Shown in pieces: positions 27,152-39,146 of a stretch of 39,183 bases of DNA. The stretch covers positions 1-39,183 of the forward strand of contig LFSE01000002.1 in NCBI GenBank assembly GCA_001513075.1, given 5' to 3'. Each line of letters begins with the position of its first letter. Positions within the stretch are counted from its first letter, which is position 1. The DNA is from Clostridiales bacterium DTU074 (GTDB taxonomy: Bacteria; Bacillota; Clostridia; Caldicoprobacterales; Caldicoprobacteraceae). The position numbers were made by a program, and so were the translations under genes. The notes beneath the pieces were generated by a model that was not told the origin of the DNA, ran no database searches, and worked only from the letters and a program-made list of their open reading frames with translations.

Positions 27152-27916
27152 ATGGAATATACCGTACATGAATTGGCAGAGTTAGCGGGGATAACTGCCA
27201 GAACCATCAGATATTATGATGAAATTGGACTTCTTAAGCCAGCCAGGATAAATTCATCGGGGTATCGCATATACCGGGGTGCGGAAGTTGACAGGCTGCA
27301 GCAGATAATGTTTTACCGCGAACTTGGTGTAAGCCTGAATGATATCAAAAACATCATGAACTCTCCGTTGTTCAACAGAGTAGAAGCCCTGAAGGAGCAC
27401 CGTGCCAGGCTTATCGATGAGAAAAAGCGCTTGGAAGTGTTGATTGCCAATGTTGAAAAAACCATTGCAATGCTGGAAGGGAGGATAATTATGACTGACA
27501 GGGAAAAATTCGAAGGTTTTAAACAAAAAATGATTGAGGAGAACGAGCTGGAATACGGCAAAGAAGCAAGGGAGAAGTACGGCGACAAGGCGGTGGATGC
27601 ATCAAATAGGAAGTTGATGAATATGACTGAAGAGGAATATGCTGCTTTGATGAAATTAACAAATGAGCTTAATGAAACCTTAAAAGCGGCATATGAGACG
27701 GGCGATCCCGGAAGCGAACTGGCTCAGAAAGCGTGTGATCTGCACAGGCAGTGACTTATGTTCTTCTGGGGCAGCTATTCCAAAGAGGCCCACATGGGAC
27801 TTGCACAGATGTATGTGGACGATGAGAGGTTTAAGGCATACTACGATAAGATTGTTCCGGGATGTGCCGAGTTTCTGCGTGATGCAATGAAGATATACAC
27901 CGGGATAAAGGAATAA
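27152..27916 (+). pseudogene. MerR-family TipA-like regulator interrupted by an in-frame TGA
   Basis: The N-terminus (YTVHELAELAGITARTIRYY, then DEIGLLKPARINSSGYRIY) is a MerR winged helix-turn-helix; a dimerisation coiled coil spans about residues 75-110. The rest is a TipAS-like antibiotic-binding domain. Translation stops at TGA 27752-27754 after residue 200 (DLHRQ), yet the same frame continues for 53 codons to TAA 27914-27916 with the expected TipAS ending (YSKEAHMGLAQMYVDDERF, then YYDKIVPGCAEFLRDAMKIY). TGA stands where family members usually have tryptophan, one base from TGG. Other genes here use TGA as a normal stop, so a nonsense mutation, or readthrough, is more likely than a changed code. 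GAGGAGGTG precedes the ATG. Confidence 0.8.
27475..27493 (+). promoter_or_regulatory. internal ribosome binding site and start for the TipAS-like domain
   Basis: GGAAGGGAGG ends six bases before an in-frame ATG at 27491, codon 114. Translation from here would yield the ligand-binding domain alone, as known for TipAS from tipA of Streptomyces. Confidence 0.6.
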
Positions 27917-28209: not shown

Positions 28210-28575
28210 GTGAAAATTCGAGCTCTTGTCATGGCACTGTTGGCAACGGCATTGCTTATTCTGTCATCCTGCGGCGGTACCGGAAACAACGGTGCTGGCA
28301 GCAAAGATGAGGTGAGTTTTAGGGCTACTGTCCTTGAAAACAACGGTTCAAATCTGCTGGTGGAACCTGAAGAAGGCTCCGCGGAGCTTCGCTCTGCTGA
28401 TAAGATTTCGGTACATGTAAGCGATGATGTGAAGTTATTTGATTCTCAGGATAAGGGAATTAATATTGATGCAATAGAAGCAGGGGATAAGGTTCAAATC
28501 TTCTATAACGGTCTAATTGCAGAGAGCTATCCTGCTCAGATCAACAAATGCTACAAGATTGTGCTAATGGACTGA
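28210..28575 (+). CDS. DUF3221-like small lipoprotein
   Basis: 121 residues starting with GTG, behind a perfect GAGGAGGGG seven bases upstream. A lipoprotein signal (MALLATALLILSSC) ends in lipobox LSSC, with cysteine at residue 21. The mature part (SFRATVLENNGSNLLVEPEE, then KISVHVSDDVKLFD and AGDKVQIFYNGLIAESYPAQI) follows the short beta-barrel pattern of DUF3221 (YobA-like) proteins. It is anchored outside the membrane; function is unknown. It stands as a single gene followed by a strong hairpin terminator. Confidence 0.8.
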   Translation: MKIRALVMALLATALLILSSCGGTGNNGAGSKDEVSFRATVLENNGSNLLVEPEEGSAELRSADKISVHVSDDVKLFDSQDKGINIDAIEAGDKVQIFYNGLIAESYPAQINKCYKIVLMD

Positions 28576-28643
28576 TTCTAAAATCTTCCGTAGCAAGTAT
28601 TTCATTGTTTGCCGGATTTTTTCCTGTCTATATTATTGATGTC

Positions 28644-28696
28644 ATATATGTGGAGCCAGGCATTATTATTGTTTGCCTGGCTACATATATTTTTGA
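28644..28696 (+). terminator. terminator of the DUF3221-like gene
   Basis: TATATGT-GG-AGCCAGGCA (28645-28662) pairs with TGCCTGGCT-ACATATA (28674-28689), 16 pairs with a two-base bulge, followed by TTTTTTG. It lies about 70 bases after the stop codon. Confidence 0.8.
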
Positions 28697-28839
28697 TGGG
28701 GTTTTATGAAAATGGGAATGCCGGAGCCATGCTGAAAAATAGGATATAGTCAATTGAATGAATATAATATATAATGTAATAAAAGATTGTCGCATTCTTT
28801 CAGGAATGCTGAATAACTTACATACTGACATGCTTCAAT

Positions 28840-28868
28840 TTGTCGTAAAGAGATTTTCTGAGTAAAAT
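28840..28868 (+). promoter_or_regulatory. promoter of the sugar/polyol cluster
   Basis: TTGTCG at 28840-28845 and TAAAAT at 28863-28868 are exactly 17 bases apart, about 100 bases before the first gene. No operator-like palindrome overlaps it. Confidence 0.5.
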
Positions 28869-28970
28869 GATAAAAAATTTAGCTTAATTACAATGGTAGA
28901 TATAAATAAGCCGTTATAAGACAGAGTGAAAAGTTGCAGGCGAGCTTATTCGCAGGAGGATGGAACAAAT

Positions 28971-30191
28971 ATGGAAAAAGCTGTAATATTCGGAGCAGGA
29001 AATATTGGCAGGGGATTTATAGGGCAGCTGTTTAGCGAGTCGGGTTACGAAGTAGTCTTTGTTGATATCAATCCGGTTATAATTGATTCTTTAAACAGGG
29101 ATGGCGGGTATCCTATCAGGATTGTTGCCGATGATGAATATACTGAAGTGATGGTTAAGAATGTCCGCGGTGTAAGGGCTGATGATACAGCAGGCGTAAT
29201 CGAAGAAATAGCATCTGCCCATATTATGGCAACTGCGGTGGGGGTTGGCGCCCTTCCCAAGATTGCCAGACCGATTGCCCTGGGACTCAAAAAGCGATGG
29301 GAATTTGGCAATTTTTCGCCTTTAAACATAGTTATTTGTGAAAACCTCATTAATGCGGATGACCACCTTGCCAGGCTGATAGAGCAGGAGCTTCAGGCTG
29401 ATGAAATCGGATGCTTTAAGGATACGGTCGGCTTGGTTGAAGCATCCATAGGGAGAATGGTGCCTGTTATAACTGAGGCAATGCAGGAGGGAAATCCGTT
29501 AAGAGTTTGGGTTGAACCATATTGTGAGTTGCCGGTGGACAAGGCAGGCTTTAAGGGGCAGATTCCTCTGATAAAGAACATGTTACCCTTTGAACCATTT
29601 GATTTTTTTATACAGCGGAAATTGTTCATGCACAATATGGGCCATGCTATAACTGCCTATCTGGGATATCTGTATAACAGGGTTTACATATGGGAAGCCA
29701 TCAGATTGCCTATTGTTAAGCTCTTTGCGTTAAGAGCCCTTGTTGATTCTGCAGCAGCACTGTCCAGGGAGCATAACGTTCCTATGCAGCAGTTGGTGGA
29801 GCATGCCGAGGATCTATTGTACCGGTTTGGGAATAGGCTGTTGGGGGATACGGTTGATAGGGTTGGCAGGGATCCTGCGAGAAAGCTTTCTGAAAATGAC
29901 AGGTTGGTAGGAGCTGCAAGATTGTGCATAAAACATGGAATTAAGCCTGTATATATGGCTTTGGGCATTGCTGCCGGCATAATGTTTGCACCTGCGGGTG
30001 ATGATGGGGCGCAAAAGGTACAGGACATTCTGAACCAAAAGGGTATAGACGGTGTGCTGAGGGATCTATGCCGGTTGACCGATGCTCTTGAACCCTTTGC
30101 CGGGATGACAAAGGAGTTTTATCAGATGCTCAGGGCAGGAACGGATTTTTATAAAATCCTTGAAACTGCCGAAAGGATGAAACGGATTTGA
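28971..30191 (+). CDS. mannitol-1-phosphate 5-dehydrogenase family protein
   Basis: 406 residues from the ATG at 28971 (AGGAGG eleven bases upstream); the in-frame ATG at 28926 lacks a binding site. The N-terminal Rossmann motif VIFGAGNIGRGFIG is the exact MtlD signature. NIVICENL near residue 120 and VDRIVP-like GRMVP follow. The catalytic helix FFIQRKLFMHNMGHAITAYLG with Lys217, Asn222 and His225 is conserved, and VGRDPARKLSENDRLVGAA near 300 matches MtlD. It should oxidise a polyol phosphate with NAD. It is about 20 residues longer than MtlD, and no mannitol PTS is present, so the substrate may be another polyol phosphate made by the FGGY kinase downstream. Confidence 0.88.
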   Translation: MEKAVIFGAGNIGRGFIGQLFSESGYEVVFVDINPVIIDSLNRDGGYPIRIVADDEYTEVMVKNVRGVRADDTAGVIEEIASAHIMATAVGVGALPKIARPIALGLKKRWEFGNFSPLNIVICENLINADDHLARLIEQELQADEIGCFKDTVGLVEASIGRMVPVITEAMQEGNPLRVWVEPYCELPVDKAGFKGQIPLIKNMLPFEPFDFFIQRKLFMHNMGHAITAYLGYLYNRVYIWEAIRLPIVKLFALRALVDSAAALSREHNVPMQQLVEHAEDLLYRFGNRLLGDTVDRVGRDPARKLSENDRLVGAARLCIKHGIKPVYMALGIAAGIMFAPAGDDGAQKVQDILNQKGIDGVLRDLCRLTDALEPFAGMTKEFYQMLRAGTDFYKILETAERMKRI

Positions 30192-30301
30192 CGGAAGAAT
30201 TTTGAGCCAAGCCGGAATTGGGAATTGTGTTAATTAATAATAAGCAGAAGCCCGGAATTCGTTGATTAGGGCTAATATGTAAATAGGAGTGAGGATGTAT
30301 T

Positions 30302-32194
30302 ATGAGGAATATCAGATTAAGCTGGAATGACTATTACGACAAAGTTTACGCCTGCTGGCTGGGTAAGAATTGCGGCGGAACCCTGGGCACGCCCTTGGAA
30401 CGAATGTATGGCAGTGAAGAAATGTTCGATGTATGGTGGTATCCACAGCTTCAGGAGGGTGGCATGCCCAATGATGACCTGGAGATACAGCTTATATGGC
30501 TGAAGGCATTGGAGGAACTGGGTCCCGATATAACAGCCCGGGATTTGGCTGAGTACTGGCTGGATTGTATCCAGTACAATTTTGACGAGTACGGGCTGCA
30601 CAAGACCAACTTGCGCCTGGGTTTACTGCCTCCGATATCGGGCTACTATAACAACTGGTTCAAGAACTGCATGGGTTGCCCTATACGGTCCGAGATATGG
30701 GCATGTATTGCACCGGGACGGCCCGATTTGGCTGCTAAATATGCCTATCAGGATGCCATAGTTGATCACGCCGGCGGGGAATCGGTATACGGAGAGGTGT
30801 TTAATGCCGCTGTGGAATCGGCTGCGTTTATAATTGATGACCGCGATACGCTGTTGGAAATAGGGCTGTCGTATATTCCCAATGACTCGCAGACCGCATT
30901 GGCCATAAGGTGTGCCATCGAAGCCTATAATAGGGGAATGACATGGAGGGAAGCAAGAAATTATGTGCTGAGCAAATGTTATAGCCCCATAGCCCAGTAT
31001 TCTCCCGTTAACCTGGGTTTTCAAACAATAGGCTGGCTGTATGGCGAGGATTTTGCCGATGCTATTTGCAAAGCGGTCAACTGCGGCTATGATACTGACT
31101 GCACCGGTGCCACTTTGGGTTCGATACTGGGTATAATGTACGGTACCAAGGCCATACCGAAGGAATGGGCCGCTCCTCTCAGTGATACTATAACCACCAA
31201 TGCCTCATGGGGTGGCATAATCAATTTGGATGAGCCTAAGAATCTTGACGAGCTGACAAGACGCACCTGTAATATGGGTAAAAGGATACTGGCGTGCAAC
31301 AATTCAAAAATTGTTATCGATGATGATGTTACCGATTTGCAGGATGTGGATGTGGCAGCACTTTATGCAACGGGTGAGATAAAGGCCCTGCTGGAACAAC
31401 CGCCTACCCGTGTCAATTTTAATATTACCACAATAAAAGTATCGCTGGATTACATGGATCATCCGGTTGTAAAAGCAGGGGAAGAAAAATATGTGAAGCT
31501 TATATTGGAGAATCCAAGGCCCATGGAATTGACGGCAAATGTGAAGGTGAGCCTGCCAAATGGATGGAGCTGCAACCCCGATTGTGTAAAGCACGTAGTC
31601 GTACCCCCTAAAGGAAAAAGCGAGATTCTGTTGTGCATAAGCGTTGATAATACAGGTCTTATAAACCAATCTAACCGTGGCAGTATACATATTGAGATTA
31701 AAGGTAGGCCGCAGGGTGAAGATATACCGCTGGTATTGCTGGGCGGCAAGCGTTGGCTGGTATCGCCTGTCGATGCAAGTTTTGATCCTGCTGCTGACGA
31801 TGTAAAGAGCTGGAAGGCGGTTGATTTTATCGACAATGAATTGCCGGTGGAACCGTTTTTTGAGCGAAAATCCGGCAGCATATATCTCTGCCATTATGTC
31901 TATAGTCCTGAAGCTCGAACCGGCCGTGTGGGGGTGTCGTCCAATTGTCCTATGGAGATAATGGTCAACGGGAAAAAAGTACACGAGGCGGCTGAACCCC
32001 GGATTCCCAGACCAAACTACAGCGGAGACGGGGAAAGCTATGCAGATGTATCGATACATGAGGGTTGGAACCAATTCATAATCAAGCTGGTACGTCAGGA
32101 AAAGCCGGTGGACGCTCATTTTACTCTGGCTACGGAACAACCGTATTTTCACGGGATGAGTGATGTTATCCAATGCCGCCTACCGTGGGAGTAA
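30302..32194 (+). CDS. ADP-ribosylglycohydrolase-fold protein with C-terminal extra domain
   Basis: 630 residues. Residues 1-330 follow the ADP-ribosylglycohydrolase (DraG) fold: GKNCGGTLGTPLE, metal-site PNDD at 56-59 (canonical TDD-T), and DTDCTGATLGSILG at 264-277 (canonical D-DT-GA). The four aspartates of the di-magnesium site are thus present. Residues 340-630 hold two beta-rich domains (NVKVSLPNGWSCNPDCVKHV, then a region with KVHEAAEPRIPRPNYSG) of galactose-binding or accessory type. In a sugar cluster, hydrolysis of an N- or O-glycosidic bond of a small molecule is more likely than protein de-ADP-ribosylation, but this is inference. GAGG lies seven bases before the ATG. Confidence 0.88.
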   Translation: MRNIRLSWNDYYDKVYACWLGKNCGGTLGTPLERMYGSEEMFDVWWYPQLQEGGMPNDDLEIQLIWLKALEELGPDITARDLAEYWLDCIQYNFDEYGLHKTNLRLGLLPPISGYYNNWFKNCMGCPIRSEIWACIAPGRPDLAAKYAYQDAIVDHAGGESVYGEVFNAAVESAAFIIDDRDTLLEIGLSYIPNDSQTALAIRCAIEAYNRGMTWREARNYVLSKCYSPIAQYSPVNLGFQTIGWLYGEDFADAICKAVNCGYDTDCTGATLGSILGIMYGTKAIPKEWAAPLSDTITTNASWGGIINLDEPKNLDELTRRTCNMGKRILACNNSKIVIDDDVTDLQDVDVAALYATGEIKALLEQPPTRVNFNITTIKVSLDYMDHPVVKAGEEKYVKLILENPRPMELTANVKVSLPNGWSCNPDCVKHVVVPPKGKSEILLCISVDNTGLINQSNRGSIHIEIKGRPQGEDIPLVLLGGKRWLVSPVDASFDPAADDVKSWKAVDFIDNELPVEPFFERKSGSIYLCHYVYSPEARTGRVGVSSNCPMEIMVNGKKVHEAAEPRIPRPNYSGDGESYADVSIHEGWNQFIIKLVRQEKPVDAHFTLATEQPYFHGMSDVIQCRLPWE

Positions 32195-32338
32195 TGGTTA
32201 TTACAAGCCTCGTACTATGCCAAGCCTTATTGATTCTGTCCCAATTTTGATAAGACAGGAGGCTGGATTGACCTCGAAAGATTAGAACACGGTATTGAGC
32301 GTTTTTGAGCTCAAGGCGGAAGTAGGGGTGGTGTTTAT

Positions 32339-33397
32339 ATGTCTTTATCGGATGGGATTGCCGCCTTAAATCTGGAGATGCCCCCCAGGGTTCCGAGAAC
32401 CGAGTATTCGGCGGAATCTCACTGGGAATTGGTGAAGCAGGTAACGGGAATTGATGTCGTGCCGGAAAGCCCGGCCCAAATAAAAAAGAAAGCCGCCAAG
32501 GCTTTTATAAAGGCCTGGAATTACGATTTCTACTGGAGCACATTAATCGGCGGAGATATATTCGGAAAGCTGCGCACCAATATGGGACATGGGATATATG
32601 CGGCAGGCGGCGAAGATTATGACGATCGAATATACTGTCCGTTTCAAGATCCCGAAGAGGTGTTAAATTTTGATCCTTGGGAAGCGTTTGGAGAACGGGA
32701 TAAGGTTACATTGACAAAGGCTTATGAAAACCATTACCAAACGCTTTGCACTGACTATCCCGATGCTGTTAACATGACGGGTATTTATGTCACCTGCATC
32801 TCCGGTTTAATTGATATTTTTGGATGGGAGATGGTATTACTGGCTGCAGGAATAGACCCCATTCGCTTTGGTGAGCTAACCAACCGGTATGCAGGATGGA
32901 TTATGCAATACTTTGAAGCACTGGCTGAAGCAGATGTACCGGTGGTCATGGTTCATGATGATATTGTATGGACTTCAGGGGCAATATTTCATCCCGAGTG
33001 GTACCGTAAATACGTCTTTCCAAATTATAAAAAGTATTTCGGTCCTTTGCTTGATAGCGGCAAAAAGATCATCTTTACATCCGACGGTAATTATACGGAA
33101 TTTATAGATGATATCGCAGATTGCGGTGTCCATGGCTTTGTAATGGAACCGATGACCGATATGAGGTATATTGCAGAAAAATACGGAAAAACCCATGTTT
33201 TTGTAGGCAATGCCGATACCAGGGTCCTGCTGAGTGGAACGAAGGAACAAATTTATAATGAGGTTAAGCGGTGCATGGACATAGGGAAGGATTGTGCCGG
33301 CTTCTTTATGGCTGTGGGGAACCATATTCCTCCAAATACACCTGTTGAAAACGCCCTATACTATAATGAAGTTTATCAGGAATTGAGCAAAAGGTAG
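32339..33397 (+). CDS. uroporphyrinogen-decarboxylase-fold (UroD/MtaA-like) protein
   Basis: 352 residues with the UroD TIM-barrel pattern: VTGIDVVPESPAQ, DPEEVLNFDPWE near residue 108, GWEMVLLAAGIDPIRFGEL near 162, VPVVMVHDDIVWTSG near 200 and GFVMEPMTDMRYIAEKYG near 265. The uroporphyrinogen-binding arginine motif at the N-terminus is missing, and the position of the zinc H-x-C-G-N of MtaA-type methyltransferases reads TSDGN (247-251). It is therefore neither a heme enzyme nor a typical zinc thiol methyltransferase. Such UroD-like proteins occur in sugar-utilisation clusters, role unknown. AGGGGTGG precedes the ATG. Confidence 0.85.
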   Translation: MSLSDGIAALNLEMPPRVPRTEYSAESHWELVKQVTGIDVVPESPAQIKKKAAKAFIKAWNYDFYWSTLIGGDIFGKLRTNMGHGIYAAGGEDYDDRIYCPFQDPEEVLNFDPWEAFGERDKVTLTKAYENHYQTLCTDYPDAVNMTGIYVTCISGLIDIFGWEMVLLAAGIDPIRFGELTNRYAGWIMQYFEALAEADVPVVMVHDDIVWTSGAIFHPEWYRKYVFPNYKKYFGPLLDSGKKIIFTSDGNYTEFIDDIADCGVHGFVMEPMTDMRYIAEKYGKTHVFVGNADTRVLLSGTKEQIYNEVKRCMDIGKDCAGFFMAVGNHIPPNTPVENALYYNEVYQELSKR

Positions 33398-33453
33398 CCA
33401 GAGCTTAACTTAGATGTTTGTTGCATGATAAAACGATAAGGGGAATGGGGAAT

Positions 33454-34986
33454 ATGCAAAAAAATTTGCTTTTGGGTATAGATTTGGGAACTTCGGGATG
33501 CAAGATGACAGTTTTTGATTTTGAGGGAGATGTGATAGCAACTTGCACTCGGACCTACCGTACCTATTATCCACAAACAGGCTATGTTGAACAGGATGCC
33601 AATGAATGGTGGAAGGTGATATGCGAAGGTATACGGCTAATGTTAAAGGAATATGCCTTTGCCCCTGAACAAATCGCTGCCATTGGCGTTGATGGAACCA
33701 GTTGGGCTTGTTTGCCGGTGGACAGAACTGGCCAACCCCTTAGATATGCAATGTTGTGGCTGGACCGCCGTGCCGAGGAACAGGTCAGATGGATGAAGGA
33801 GACTGCCGGTGAAGAACGATTGATTGCTCTGAGCGGAAATCCGGTTGATGCAGCATATATTGCACCCAAAATGCTGTGGGTTAAGCAAAATGAACCTGAG
33901 ATCTATAAAAAGGCCTATAAGTTTCTCCAGAGCAATGGGTTTATAGTATATAAACTGACTGGGGTGTTTTCCCAGGATTATTCTCAGGGATACGGCTTTC
34001 ATTTTTTCAATATTTCAAAGGGCTGCTGGGATGAGGATGTAGCTGAGATACTGGGCATATCTTTGGACCATATGAGCCCATTATATCACTGTCATCAGGT
34101 GGTGGGAACAGTTACCAGGAAAGCGGCGGATGAATCCGGGCTGACACCCGGAACTCCGGTGGTAGCGGGAGGATTGGATGCTGCATGTTGCACCCTGGGG
34201 GCCGGTGTGATTCATCCCGGGCAAACCCAGGAGCAGGGCGGCCAGGCCGGGGGTATGAGTATAGTGGTTGATCGCCCGTTGATACACCCCAAACTGATAT
34301 TAGGATACCATGTTGTTCCCGGCAGATGGCTGCTGCAAGGCGGGACGGTAGGCGGAGGAGGAGCGCTGAGATGGTTCAGTGAACAGTTGGGTGTTTTTGA
34401 GCAACAGAAGGCAAGGGAAACCGGCCGAAGTCCATATGAGATCATGGATCAGGAGGCGGAGGAGATATCACCGGGCAGCGACGGCCTTATCTTTCTTCCG
34501 TATATGGCAGGGGAGCGCTCTCCATTATGGGACAGCAAAGCCCGGGGAGTGTTTTTTGGACTGTCATATGACAAGACCAGAGCCCATATGATAAGGGCCG
34601 TTATGGAAGGTGTAGGTTTTTCCCTGCTGCACAATTTAAGGACGGCAGAAGAATCGGGGGCATATGTGGGGGATTTGAACAGCGTTGGCGGATCGGCAAA
34701 CAGCAGCGTATGGACCCAGATAAAGGCCGATATCACCAATAAGAGAATAAAGGTGCCTTTTTCGGACCATGCAACCACGCTGGGAGCAGCTATCCTGGCA
34801 GGTGTGGGGGTAGGAATATATAAGAGTTTTGATGAAGCTGTCCAAACAACTGTGCGAATACGAAGAGTTTATTCACCAAACCACGATAATCATCGAGTAT
34901 ATATGGGCTATTATCAACTCTACCTCGAGCTTTATGAAAACCTAAGGAACACCTTTCAAAAGCTTTATATTTTAGCGAATAATTGA
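33454..34986 (+). CDS. FGGY-family carbohydrate kinase (xylulokinase-like)
   Basis: 510 residues from the ATG at 33454; upstream in-frame ATGs at 33418 and 33445 lie before or against the AAGGGGA site. LLGIDLGTSGCKMTVFD opens the first ATPase lobe; DGTSWACLPVDRTGQPL, WLDRRAEEQ and a VVAGGLDAACCTLGAGV segment mark the sugar and ATP sites. The C-terminal GGSANSSVWTQIKADITNKRI is the FGGY signature. It should phosphorylate a sugar or polyol with ATP. Nothing indicates which one: xylulokinase is the closest general type. It is flanked by two dehydrogenases of phosphorylated polyols (MtlD and GatD families). Confidence 0.92.
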   Translation: MQKNLLLGIDLGTSGCKMTVFDFEGDVIATCTRTYRTYYPQTGYVEQDANEWWKVICEGIRLMLKEYAFAPEQIAAIGVDGTSWACLPVDRTGQPLRYAMLWLDRRAEEQVRWMKETAGEERLIALSGNPVDAAYIAPKMLWVKQNEPEIYKKAYKFLQSNGFIVYKLTGVFSQDYSQGYGFHFFNISKGCWDEDVAEILGISLDHMSPLYHCHQVVGTVTRKAADESGLTPGTPVVAGGLDAACCTLGAGVIHPGQTQEQGGQAGGMSIVVDRPLIHPKLILGYHVVPGRWLLQGGTVGGGGALRWFSEQLGVFEQQKARETGRSPYEIMDQEAEEISPGSDGLIFLPYMAGERSPLWDSKARGVFFGLSYDKTRAHMIRAVMEGVGFSLLHNLRTAEESGAYVGDLNSVGGSANSSVWTQIKADITNKRIKVPFSDHATTLGAAILAGVGVGIYKSFDEAVQTTVRIRRVYSPNHDNHRVYMGYYQLYLELYENLRNTFQKLYILANN

Positions 34987-35008
34987 TTTGTTGTAGGGGG
35001 TTATAAGA

Positions 35009-36049
35009 ATGAAAGCAGCAGTATTGCACGATCAAAGGGATATCCGCTATGATGAAATTGTGGTACCGGATATAAAAGAGGATGAAATACTGGTAAAGGT
35101 AAAGGCCACGGGAATCTGCGGCTCCGATATACCGAGGGTACTGGGTAGCGCCGCTCATTATTACCCAATCGTGTTGGGGCATGAGTTCTCAGGCGAAGTT
35201 GTTGAGGTCGGCAGCCAAGTCACCAATGTGAAAGCGGGTGACAGGATATCGGGAGCTCCGCTAATACCCTGTCACAAATGTATTGATTGTACAAGGGGCC
35301 ATTTTTCCCAATGCAAGCATTATTCGTTTATAGGTTCCCGGGTTGACGGAAGTTGGGCTGAATATGTCAAGATGCCCGGAATTAACGCTATAAAGCTTCC
35401 CGAAAAAGTCAGCTTTGTACAGGGTGCCTTTTTCGAACCTACAACGGTGGCGTTGCATGGGCTGTTCGTCATGGATTTTAGGGGAGGTTACGATACAGCG
35501 ATTGTCGGGATGGGCACCATTGGCCTTTTAACCCTTCAATGTGCGAGGATCCTGGGGGCTAGGAGAATATTTGCCTTTGATATAGACAACAAACGACTGG
35601 ATATTGCCAGGGATTACGGAGCCGATGTATGTATAAATACTGGGGACGATGATTTCAGAGAAAAGGTTAATGAACTTACCCGGGGCCGAGGTTTTGACAT
35701 GGTAATTGAAACCGCCGGAGTTGAATTTACCGAGAAGCTGTGTCTTGAGATTGCAGCGAATAAAGGAAATGTAATGTTCATAGGGACGCCGTCCAGGCCA
35801 ATTACACTTCAGCCTCGTGAATTTGAGCATATCAACCGTAAAGAGCTTACCGTAAGGGGTTCTTGGATGTCGTATTCCGCTCCTTTTCCCGGAAGGGAGT
35901 GGGAATTGGCGGGGTGTTATTTTGCTAAAGGTCTTATTCGGATAGAAGAGCTAATTGACAGAATTGTGCCTTTAGAGGATGCAGCGGAAGTATTTAAAGA
36001 TTTTGAAGTTCCAGGCAAGGTGAAAGGGAAAATACTTTTTGAGGTATAA
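35009..36049 (+). CDS. zinc-dependent polyol dehydrogenase, galactitol-1-phosphate dehydrogenase (GatD)-like
   Basis: 346 residues. ATGICGSDIPRV, AHYYPIVLGHEFSGEV, structural-zinc cysteines in PCHKCIDCTRGHFSQC, FIGSRVDGSWAEY, and RKELTVRGSWMSYSAPFPGREWE follow E. coli GatD almost phrase by phrase, including segments not shared with general alcohol dehydrogenases. VGMGTIGLL starts the NAD domain near residue 174. GatD oxidises galactitol 1-phosphate to tagatose 6-phosphate. No gat PTS genes are visible here, so the substrate may be a related polyol phosphate formed by the kinase 22 bases upstream. AGGGGGT precedes the ATG. Last gene of the cluster; I see no terminator after it. Confidence 0.88.
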   Translation: MKAAVLHDQRDIRYDEIVVPDIKEDEILVKVKATGICGSDIPRVLGSAAHYYPIVLGHEFSGEVVEVGSQVTNVKAGDRISGAPLIPCHKCIDCTRGHFSQCKHYSFIGSRVDGSWAEYVKMPGINAIKLPEKVSFVQGAFFEPTTVALHGLFVMDFRGGYDTAIVGMGTIGLLTLQCARILGARRIFAFDIDNKRLDIARDYGADVCINTGDDDFREKVNELTRGRGFDMVIETAGVEFTEKLCLEIAANKGNVMFIGTPSRPITLQPREFEHINRKELTVRGSWMSYSAPFPGREWELAGCYFAKGLIRIEELIDRIVPLEDAAEVFKDFEVPGKVKGKILFEV

Positions 36050-36302
36050 AGGTGGAAGCGCTATGATTAAGCTATATGGTTAAATCAGGTTGAATCAGGA
36101 AAAAATCAAAATTTGGAAACGAGTTGCCAGTAAACGGGAGCATTTTTTCAGTCCAAGACAGGCTTTTCAATGTTTTCGGAATTATTATACGTTATACGGC
36201 AATGTCCCCAAATAATTCAATTATGTGTGGTTGGCTTAATACTTTCAAACGGCTTATCGGCGGCTGGCAAGCCGGCGGTTATGCTCTCAGGGAGAGGTAG
36301 AG
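36050..36302. other. 253-base intergenic region
   Basis: No convincing gene. It contains a short CGGCT-GGCA-AGCCG hairpin near 36262-36278 without a T-run, and a tiny ATG frame at 36063 (seven codons) with an AGGTGG nearby. A 69-codon ATG frame at 36170 overlaps the next gene and has no binding site. The promoter of the next gene probably lies here, but I cannot pick it with confidence. Confidence 0.4.
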
Positions 36303-37826
36303 ATGGAGAAGAAAAGAATAAAATACGCTGTTTTTCTTATCGCTGTGTTTTTGACAATTGTATTTATACCGAATACTGATCCGGCTAAAGCGTTGGAGCA
36401 AAAAGGACAAATAGATATTGTCTATTTCTATGATAACCCCTGTGCGGCATGCGATGAAGAGGGGAAATTTATCGAATTGTTCAATTCTATAGTTGGTGAA
36501 TACAAAAAAGGCGTGGAAATACATCTTTCTATGCATAATGTTTTTCATGAAAGTGGCTGGAATTTGTTGCAGCAATATTACGAAGAATTTGGTGTACCGG
36601 AGGACAGGCAAACCGTTCCCATACTGTTTATCAATAATGAATATCTTTCCGGGAGTACGGCTATTCAGGAAGAACTGAAAGATGTATTTTTGCGGGAGAA
36701 AGGTAAGATAGCAATCGATGAAGTTGATAGCGGGGACGACATTCAGACTACCATTGTGTATTTTTATGTGACGGCATGCAAAGAATGTGAAGAAGTAGCA
36801 AAAATCCTTGACACATTGGAGGAACGGTATCCCCTTGAATTCGATGATGAGGGTAATTACACGTATGTGGAAGTAAAAAAGTTCAATATAGGCGAAGCTG
36901 AAAATTTACAGCTGGTAAGGAAATACTTCGAGGTTTTTGATGTGCCGGAAAAAGAACAATCGGTTCCTATTATATTTGTAGGAGATATCTATTTATCCGG
37001 TCTGGAAGCAATCCGGCAGGAGCTGGTACAAAGAATAAAAGCAGGAGAGGGTATCCGTACTCCGGTTTTAAGTACGGAGGAAAGTGCCGACCCACGCTCT
37101 TCAGTAAGCTTGGAGGGTTATAATGTTGTAGGAGTGCTGTTGACCGGACTTGTAAACGGCTTGAATCCGTGTTCTCTGTCTATGTTGTTGTTTTTCCTAT
37201 CCCTCCTTTTAGCAAAAGGTACCAACATATTAAAGATGGGTTTTGCTTTTTGTTTCGGGAAGTTTCTTGCATATTTGCTATTGGGATCGCTGCTTTTTAA
37301 TGTATTCTTGAAACTGCAGGTTTCTTGGGTTTCTGCCATTGTAAAAGGAATCATTCTTATTATAGCATTTATTATAATAGTTATGAATTTACGGGATTAT
37401 TTTGCTGCAAAAAAAGAAAAATATGATAAAATCCGTATGCAGCTTCCTACAGTATTGAGAAAATATAACCATAAATGGATAAAGAAGTTTACATCAACAG
37501 AGAACGCCAGAATGTTACTTATAGGGAGTTTTTCTTTAGGTATGATTATTTCGGCGGGGGAATTTTTATGCACTGGACAAATCTATTTAGCCACTATTGT
37601 ATATGTTTTAAGAAGCAGTCCCGCTTTTAATCTCCAGGCATTTGCATATTTTATTTTGTATACTCTGGCCTTTATTATTCCTTTACTTGTTATTACAATT
37701 ATAATATATAAGGGGAAAGAGGTATTTGATGTGTCCGAGCTTATCCGTGAGAGAATGCCGATTATCAAGCTGATAAATGCTGCGTTGTTTTTCATTTTCG
37801 GACTGGCTGTGCTTATTTGGTTTTAG
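36303..37826 (+). CDS. two thioredoxin-like domains fused to a CcdA/DsbD-like membrane domain
   Basis: 507 residues. A signal/anchor helix (YAVFLIAVFLTIVFI) is followed by two thioredoxin/glutaredoxin-like domains: the first with CAAC at 47-50 and cis-proline VPILF near 106, the second with CKEC at 159-162 and VPIIF near 222. From about residue 270 there are six membrane segments, with a cysteine in NPCS (Cys290) in the first and another in EFLCTGQIY (Cys423) in the fourth. This pair is the CcdA/DsbD redox couple that passes electrons across the membrane. The protein likely moves reducing power from the cytoplasm to its own two exported domains. GGGAGAGG lies just before the ATG. A small gene follows 35 bases later. 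Confidence 0.85.
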   Translation: MEKKRIKYAVFLIAVFLTIVFIPNTDPAKALEQKGQIDIVYFYDNPCAACDEEGKFIELFNSIVGEYKKGVEIHLSMHNVFHESGWNLLQQYYEEFGVPEDRQTVPILFINNEYLSGSTAIQEELKDVFLREKGKIAIDEVDSGDDIQTTIVYFYVTACKECEEVAKILDTLEERYPLEFDDEGNYTYVEVKKFNIGEAENLQLVRKYFEVFDVPEKEQSVPIIFVGDIYLSGLEAIRQELVQRIKAGEGIRTPVLSTEESADPRSSVSLEGYNVVGVLLTGLVNGLNPCSLSMLLFFLSLLLAKGTNILKMGFAFCFGKFLAYLLLGSLLFNVFLKLQVSWVSAIVKGIILIIAFIIIVMNLRDYFAAKKEKYDKIRMQLPTVLRKYNHKWIKKFTSTENARMLLIGSFSLGMIISAGEFLCTGQIYLATIVYVLRSSPAFNLQAFAYFILYTLAFIIPLLVITIIIYKGKEVFDVSELIRERMPIIKLINAALFFIFGLAVLIWF

Positions 37827-38192: not shown

Positions 38193-39146
38193 TTGGGACA
38201 TTATATGGAAATGTCCAGAAAAATGCATAGAAGTAGGATATTTATAAATTTTCTGATTTCCTATTTGGTAGTGATGCTAATTCCGATTATTATCGGAGCT
38301 GTCGCATATAATGGAGCTTTGCAAGTTGTTGAACGTGATGCACGTGAGGCTAATCTCTCTATGCTCGAACAGTGCGTAGCAATATTGGACAGGCGTTTTG
38401 AAGAGGTAGAATGCATAGCGACTCAATTGGCGTTAAACCCAAAACTTTGGGACTTCGCCCGGGAGTTAAGCCCCTATATTGATAGAACTATACCTTATAA
38501 AATAAATGAGATTAGGGATGAAATTGCACCGATAACCACTACCAATAATTTTATTAAAATGCTGTGTATATACTTTAATAAATCAGATGTAACCATTTTT
38601 ACTACCCATTCATGGATTAAACTGGATTATTTCTATGGTAAGACTTTTCAATATGGAGATATGGATACCTCGGAGTGGAGAGATAAAATACTAAACAGAT
38701 GTTTTCATAAAGAATATTTTCCTATAAATTCCGTTATACTTAAAGATCAAAATGATCCAAGCAGATTTATTAGTGAATCCATGTTTATGTTTATTCAATC
38801 GTTTCCGTCCATATATTCCACTAAAGGACAAATAATGGTCTTTATACCAAAGAAAAAAATTGAGGAGCTTTTTAGGCCCATTATTACACAACAGGGCGGA
38901 TATGTCTATATTTTAGATTCAAAAGGCAGGAAGTTAGCTGATTTTTCCTCATCTGAGAAAGCAGTTGAAGCATTCGATTTTACATTTCACGATTCAAATG
39001 GTTTTTTTGTCCATAGTAGTAATGAAGAGGACATGATAGTAACATATAAAACATCGCTATACAATGGATGGAAATATATAGCGGTAATGCCATATAATAT
39101 AGTGATGCAAAGGGTTTTTAATATTGATTGTCCCACAAAAAGCTAG
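38193..39146 (+). pseudogene. cache-domain sensor (histidine kinase or AraC-type regulator), truncated at the C-terminus
   Basis: 317 residues starting at TTG, four to five bases after GAGGGGGG; an ATG at 38205 is too far from the site. The first membrane segment (IFINFLISYLVVMLIPIIIGAVAY) is followed by an extracellular dCache-like domain to about residue 305, ending in YNGWKYIAVMPYNIVMQRVFNI. In YesN/AraC- and YesM-type proteins this point is followed by a second membrane helix and a HAMP, kinase or AraC domain. Here it is replaced by DCPTKS and TAG. The truncated product could bind a ligand but not signal. Insertion of a mobile element at about 39120-39130, continuing past the window, would explain it. 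Confidence 0.7.

Follow-up and report, generated by a model that had tools for sequence, protein, structure and literature searches.

A conserved FGGY kinase–GatD gene pair as a candidate entrance to the tagatose 6-phosphate pathway

Gene content of the locus

The window, that is, the whole stretch of DNA analysed (39,183 nucleotides), is the entire contig C116 of the 2.56-Mb draft genome G000. Five open reading frames lie on its + strand within 28971–36049 (Table 1). A first-pass annotation had placed them in the MtlD, ADP-ribosylglycohydrolase (ADPRH), UroD-fold, FGGY kinase and GatD families; the same-strand reading frames and the Pfam matches, all above cut-off, bear out both the families and the placement, as well as its remark that no transporter or PTS gene occurs among the five. 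The intergenic gaps measure 110, 144, 56 and 22 nt, and a terminator scan returned no + strand terminator-like site in any of the four; with this layout a shared transcript is plausible. The upstream promoter-like site comes from a consensus scan that gave 27 sites in the region against 22.6 in shuffles, not above chance. Compared with G005, a genome of the same genus, all five genes are under purifying selection: dN/dS is 0.12 for MtlD (234 codons), 0.09 for ADPRH, 0.08 for the FGGY kinase, 0.07 for GatD and, over its first 103 codons only, 0.10 for UroD, a second fragment of which was misaligned (21% identity) and dropped.

Table 1. Coordinates of the genes and of the promoter-like site in the window
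Feature	Position	Strand	Remarks
Promoter-like site TAGTCA-17-TATAAT, upstream of the five-gene run	28747-28775	+	consensus scan only
MtlD-like long-chain polyol(-phosphate) dehydrogenase	28971-30191	+	406 aa; Pfam Mannitol_dh + Mannitol_dh_C
ADP-ribosylglycohydrolase-fold hydrolase (ADPRH)	30302-32194	+	630 aa; Pfam ADP_ribosyl_GH, residues 17-288
UroD-fold TIM-barrel protein	32339-33397	+	352 aa; Pfam URO-D
FGGY-family carbohydrate kinase, proposed hexitol kinase	about 33454-34986	+	about 510 aa; Pfam FGGY_N + FGGY_C
GatD-type zinc dehydrogenase, proposed hexitol-1-phosphate 5-dehydrogenase	35009-36049	+	346 aa; Pfam ADH_N + ADH_zinc_N

Since no gene reaches a curated NCBIfam equivalog cut-off, MtlD, GatD and the other names are used here as family labels only. 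The best names were mannitol-1-phosphate 5-dehydrogenase for MtlD (best sub-model, 309 bits, cut-off 356), xylulokinase for the kinase (364.1 bits, cut-off 380.25) and galactitol-1-phosphate 5-dehydrogenase for GatD (333 bits, cut-off 550; the best model by 132 bits). ADPRH scored 31.7 and 29.6 bits against DraG and Tri1 (cut-offs 337 and 490), and UroD scored 25.4 bits against hemE (cut-off 303) and 50.9 against MtaA/CmuA (cut-off 235).

Two further reading frames near the contig ends may be mentioned. One (1031–2734) encodes a short MetH-like protein which, by eye, has a homocysteine methyltransferase-type half and a pterin-binding-type half; the other (38193–39146) encodes a Cache-type sensor, has its stop codon 37 bases from the contig end and may be truncated.

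A conserved pair among recent neighbours

Real and correctly placed as they are, the five genes do not form one conserved cluster. The first-pass annotation had proposed a survey of neighbourhood conservation and regarded a cluster that is not conserved as speaking against its model; the outcome is divided, the kinase–GatD pair being conserved and the five-gene set not. Among 30 genomes of the order, G000 included, the ADPRH protein (E ≤ 1e-60) was found in eight and the UroD protein in four, and the full five-gene order recurred in G005 only. There it is spread over two contigs, which overlap by 196 bases at 99%, and the UroD gene is broken: its reading frame covers roughly the first 195 of 352 residues, with an internal stop in one contig copy. 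A third genome of the genus, G006, carries at this site the kinase and GatD only (84% and 83%), without MtlD, ADPRH and UroD, and shares with the window the adjoining DUF3221, TipA and NdvB genes. MtlD, ADPRH and UroD are recent, partly decaying neighbours of the kinase–GatD pair. The TipA-like MerR regulator of the window (27152–27916) has an in-frame TGA at 27752, after which the TipAS domain resumes in frame; the G006 copy reads N from the TGA stretch onward and hence allows no comparison.

The reach of the pair was surveyed with the kinase (queries began two codons upstream, at 33448) in 291 genomes of the class (20 matches at 1e-120) and 398 of the phylum (16 matches at 1e-150). With G000 and one repeat left out, stretches of only 6–19 kb around 33 kinase loci were examined. 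Among the loci compared in this study, those rich in GC may include false reading frames. GatD adjoins the kinase in 31 of the 33 (18/19 in the first set, 13/14 in the second) and is missing from the other two because the contig ends at the kinase. To judge from these sequences, the pair is a conserved, old unit inside the five-gene run and a constant pair in many bacteria. Its companions are LacI (21 loci), an aldo-keto reductase (AKR; 20), GatY (14) and GatZ (11; GatY and/or GatZ in 23), FucU, an L-fucose mutarotase (10), and a LacC-like, tagatose-6-phosphate/1-phosphofructokinase-like kinase (10); rarer are the fucosidase families GH29 (4) and GH95 (1) and a GalM-like gene (1). In L109, L110, L112 and L121 the module has a GH29 or GH95 neighbour. 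The partner queries were drawn from L109, L114 and L123, which therefore match themselves. Against curated models FucU and GatY score above cut-off and GatZ slightly below, and the LacC-like protein of L109 lies above the 1-phosphofructokinase cut-off and below that of LacC. GatY, GatZ and the LacC-like kinase are the enzymes that would consume the product of GatD.

MtlD, ADPRH and UroD occur in none of the 33 stretches as fetched, with one exception to the UroD zero: L199 was read to 12 kb, and further along the same contig (L026) the order is FGGY–GatD–GatZ–LacI–GHL6–ABC transporter, then UroD.

The association holds for whole genomes as well. AKR (E ≤ 1e-110) is present in 26 of the 291 class genomes and in 18 of the 20 with the kinase, the exceptions being G016 and G056 (Fisher 1.4e-20 which, the genomes being related, is no true probability); the control, MtlD, occurs as by chance, in 3/20 kinase genomes versus 34/291 overall (p 0.42). 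The kinase is missing at threshold from 8 of the 26 AKR genomes, a point against the route proposed below. A DsbD-like membrane protein with two thioredoxin-like parts is encoded downstream of GatD in the window (36303–37826), and relatives (48%, 36% and 30%) lie near AKR in three other genomes (L171:6376-7854, L110:9692-10612, L112:5431-6069).

MtlD and ADPRH outside the module

The MtlD-like protein is 37% identical to E. coli MtlD and retains the K-x4-N-x2-H stretch, which we take to be the active site. As a member of the module it was rejected: its relatives at 16 loci have no context in common with the module, AKR, FucU, LacC and GH29 being absent from all 16, while weak matches to FGGY, GatD and GatY (26–35%) turned up at two loci, and to LacI at one. 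At seven loci (L129, L131–L133, L135, L136, L138) MtlD-like relatives (45–55%) adjoin a kinase that by eye is of PfkB type, and these loci often carry a protein of about 180–200 aa, a sugar theme unlike that of the window.

ADPRH belongs to its fold family by Pfam PF03747 and has a long C-terminal half (residues about 370–630), with strands in a predicted model that is too poor (pLDDT 40.6, from a two-sequence alignment) to define its fold and was set aside. The first-pass annotation saw in this hydrolase the enzyme that releases the sugar or polyol, a role against which its closest relatives speak: in G002 (81%) and G004 (80%) the gene lies beside a GH78 rhamnosidase, without FGGY–GatD. The G004 rhamnosidase was identified by likeness to the G002 copy, and near ADPRH in G002 there are also a TIM-barrel protein resembling xylose isomerase and a second FGGY kinase, which groups in the tree with E. 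coli rhamnulokinase. The literature searched held nothing relevant on ADPRH with rhamnose or glycosidases. We regard MtlD and ADPRH as accessory or unrelated neighbours, outside the conserved module.

The kinase and GatD as proteins

The kinase is 84% identical to its G005 and G006 counterparts, 73% to those of G021/G023 and about 28–29% to E. coli XylB, LyxK and LsrK. In a tree of 31 rows (the L119 kinase was left out), E. coli XylB falls outside a 20-row clade of module kinases, with the E. coli rows long-branched and the backbone weak there. GatD is 41% identical to E. coli GatD; pairwise alignment shows conservation of the Cys/His/Glu positions, which we take to be the zinc ligands, and of the GatD-specific stretch GSWMxYSxPxPGxEWE. 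In the PDB it matches E. coli GatD (4a2c) best, at 276 bits versus 173 for the next, and these comparisons put the protein much nearer to true GatD than to anything else compared. The substrate of E. coli GatD is phosphorylated, the enzyme converting L-galactitol 1-phosphate to D-tagatose 6-phosphate.

Other parts of the proposed pathway in the genome

Further parts are encoded elsewhere in G000: contig C67 has a LacI–AKR–GH29 run (AKR 77%, LacI 73%), and on C21 a GatY (70%) adjoins a LacC-like kinase (50%). G006 likewise has AKR–GH29 and GatY–LacC. In G005, a draft 94% complete which has the kinase–GatD pair, no AKR match was found at 1e-20, and only distant GatY (46–48%) and LacC (35%) are present. 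G000 also has GalT and L-fucose isomerase (found in 17 and 11 of 21 genomes tested, respectively), which gives it a standard route for each of D-galactose and L-fucose.

Many module loci share a palindromic LacI operator, about AGCTAAACGTTTAGCT. Nine sites from L109, L113, L114, L115 and L121 served to train the motif, which was recovered outside training in L116, L118, L122 and L125, and three times around the LacI–AKR–GH29 run of C67; over 224,690 bases the MtlD loci gave 7 matches scoring 11 bits or more. Near the window genes (28500–36100) there is no such operator, and loose matches are fewer than in shuffles. Co-regulation with the AKR locus thus lacks support, which counts against the explanation we favour.

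Proposed route and alternatives

The families, their gene associations and the presence of the parts in G000 are read from sequence, and on this footing we propose, with a probability of roughly 0.55, that the kinase–GatD pair (33454–36049) is the functional core of a PTS-free route via a sugar alcohol into the tagatose-6-phosphate pathway. In the first step AKR (C67 in G000) would reduce an aldohexose at C1, after ring opening by a FucU-type mutarotase in genomes that have one; the FGGY kinase would phosphorylate the hexitol; GatD would oxidise the hexitol phosphate to D-tagatose 6-phosphate; and a LacC/FruK-like kinase and GatY aldolase, with or without GatZ, would yield triose phosphates (adjacent on C21 in G000). 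These reactions, their order and all substrates are what we infer, the substrates from the neighbouring genes, and they are most likely galactose-configured: L-galactose, D-galactose or galactitol itself. A galactitol kinase making L-galactitol 1-phosphate would replace the PTS. The sequence of kinase then oxidation without a PTS, as first annotated, fits the conserved pair with its GatY, GatZ and LacC-like companions. The step before it, invisible from the window alone, is more likely a reduction: the module includes AKR and, in G000, a GH29 glycosidase is encoded with it on another contig; AKR and mutarotase together would put an aldose first. Weighing against the proposal, 10 of the 33 loci lack GatY/GatZ and 13 lack AKR, within stretches of 6–19 kb.

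A more specific version, which we put forward tentatively, starts from L-galactose. Some GH95 and GH29 enzymes accept L-galactosides. L-galactose might be released by a fucosidase-type glycosidase, opened by FucU and reduced by AKR to galactitol, from which a PTS-independent galactitol kinase and GatD would produce D-tagatose 6-phosphate. Reduction of L-galactose gives galactitol, so that L-galactose would reconcile the fucose-type genes with the tagatose-type ones; galactitol being meso, the L-sugar would join D-sugar metabolism without epimerase or isomerase. If true, this would account for the sharing of operons by genes of L-fucose type and D-tagatose type, and would amount to an elegant chemical means of consuming an L-sugar.

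Several alternatives were weighed. First, oxidation could precede phosphorylation, as in dehydrogenase-then-kinase polyol routes: the GatD homologue would act on the unphosphorylated hexitol, taking galactitol to tagatose, and the FGGY protein would then phosphorylate the ketose, giving tagatose 6-phosphate. Ketoses are frequent substrates of FGGY kinases, the one here scores best against xylulokinase, falling only 16 bits short of the cut-off, so that a ketose or pentitol substrate is possible, and the downstream enzymes would be identical. We nonetheless consider this order unlikely, since GatD retains the GatD-specific stretch of the E. coli enzyme and its 276 bits compare with at most 173 for free-polyol dehydrogenases.

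Second, the sugar might be L-fucose, which AKR would reduce to L-fucitol, the kinase convert to L-fucitol 1-phosphate and GatD to a keto-phosphate for an aldolase of shifted specificity. The FucU score above the L-fucose mutarotase cut-off and the GH29 or GH95 genes beside the module and beside AKR in G000 are what one would then expect. L-fucose nevertheless fits badly, because GatD-type oxidation of L-fucitol 1-phosphate would give 1-deoxy-tagatose 6-phosphate, unusable by LacC and GatY, and because G000 has L-fucose isomerase. GatY-type products, moreover, have the C3/C4 configuration opposite to L-fuculose 1-phosphate, and taken together these points make L-fucose decidedly improbable.

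Third, the route might be one for a pentitol or xylulose, with xylulose or a pentitol as substrate of the FGGY kinase and a pentitol or its phosphate as that of the GatD homologue. Besides the near-miss of the kinase at the xylulokinase cut-off, this is favoured by a gene annotated as galactitol-1-phosphate dehydrogenase which, in the excerpt of PMC6685057, sits in an arabitol operon. The neighbours GatY, GatZ and LacC are six-carbon enzymes, and an unsystematic look among the neighbours revealed no pentose isomerase or transketolase; we hold the pentitol route to be very unlikely. Finally, the single five-gene pathway of the first-pass annotation, in which ADPRH frees a sugar or polyol for the kinase and two dehydrogenases, has in its favour the common strand, short gaps, purifying selection and repeated order in G005, and is given hardly any credence in view of the 0/33 count, the pair alone at the G006 site, the broken UroD of G005 and the rhamnose genes accompanying close ADPRH relatives.

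Relation to known pathways

The proposed route resembles the E. coli gat pathway (GatABC PTS, GatD, GatY/GatZ) in having homologues of GatD (41%, window), GatY (49–52%) and GatZ (48%), and in that the product would be tagatose 6-phosphate and then tagatose bisphosphate. It differs in that the module is without a PTS and has an FGGY kinase in its place, and in that AKR and mutarotase suggest a sugar, not a polyol, as input. With the LacC/LacD-type tagatose-6-phosphate pathway of galactose it shares a LacC-like kinase and a tagatose-bisphosphate-type aldolase, whereas its tagatose 6-phosphate would derive from a hexitol phosphate rather than galactose 6-phosphate. Possibly it has the substrate of L-galactose catabolism (Phocaeicola vulgatus; the lgu genes of Luteolibacter). 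The known L-galactose routes are, in the excerpt of PMC12632266, oxidative, an L-galactose dehydrogenase leading to L-galactonate and tagaturonate; the first step of the module would instead be a reduction.

In the excerpt of PMC5583593 only two routes are named for galactose, and two for fucose. The open-access literature, outside which most subscription papers lie, yielded no description of an FGGY-type galactitol kinase or of L-galactose use via galactitol and tagatose. We put the pair forward as a good candidate, and one open to test, for a new way into the tagatose-6-phosphate pathway. If this is right, the pair would be a third entrance to tagatose 6-phosphate across one large phylum, and many ‘xylulokinase’ and ‘galactitol-1-phosphate dehydrogenase’ annotations would change in genomes without a galactitol PTS.

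The UroD-fold protein

The UroD-fold family, with 54–74% identity in intact copies, has members in records under the names Clostridia, Planctomycetota, Chloroflexi and Spirochaetes. By BLAST a GH29 gene lies within the stretch at 7 of 29 UroD loci, of which L006 and L055 are one genome, and Pfam adds GH29 at L012, L014 and L016; for the Pfam families around UroD an alignment of unrelated proteins (A1) served solely for counting. The UroD gene adjoins AKR in L027; in G004, whose copy has an internal deletion, a single gene separates the two. We view the protein as an optional companion within this sugar theme, recurring with fucosidases and AKR in other lineages and decaying in relatives.

Its predicted structure (pLDDT 93.8) appears closest to MtaA-type methyltransferases and UroD: the best Foldseek match is the M. 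mazei methyltransferase 4ay8 (TM 0.65), with up to 0.67 to UroD. MtaA/CmuA methyltransferases have a His-x-Cys metal motif. The window protein shares the fold and differs in having Thr-Ser-Asp-Gly at that place; in alignment A2, TSDG stands there in most of 23 UroD homologues, with D and G invariant. H84, H206-D207-D208, S248-D249-G250 and E270, invariant or nearly so, are candidate active-site residues. Corrinoid O-demethylation of a methylated fucose was considered and is not supported, the metal motif being absent and no B12-binding motif occurring in the reading frames of 25 UroD loci. Nothing relevant on UroD-fold proteins with fucosidases was found in the literature searched.

A further putative glycosidase family turned up in these surveys. 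GHL6, a hypothetical glycosidase, is encoded in L026/L199 and L110, and also on contig C90 of G000 (L182:1083-9699), in one run with a GH78 rhamnosidase, a LacI and L-fucose isomerase.
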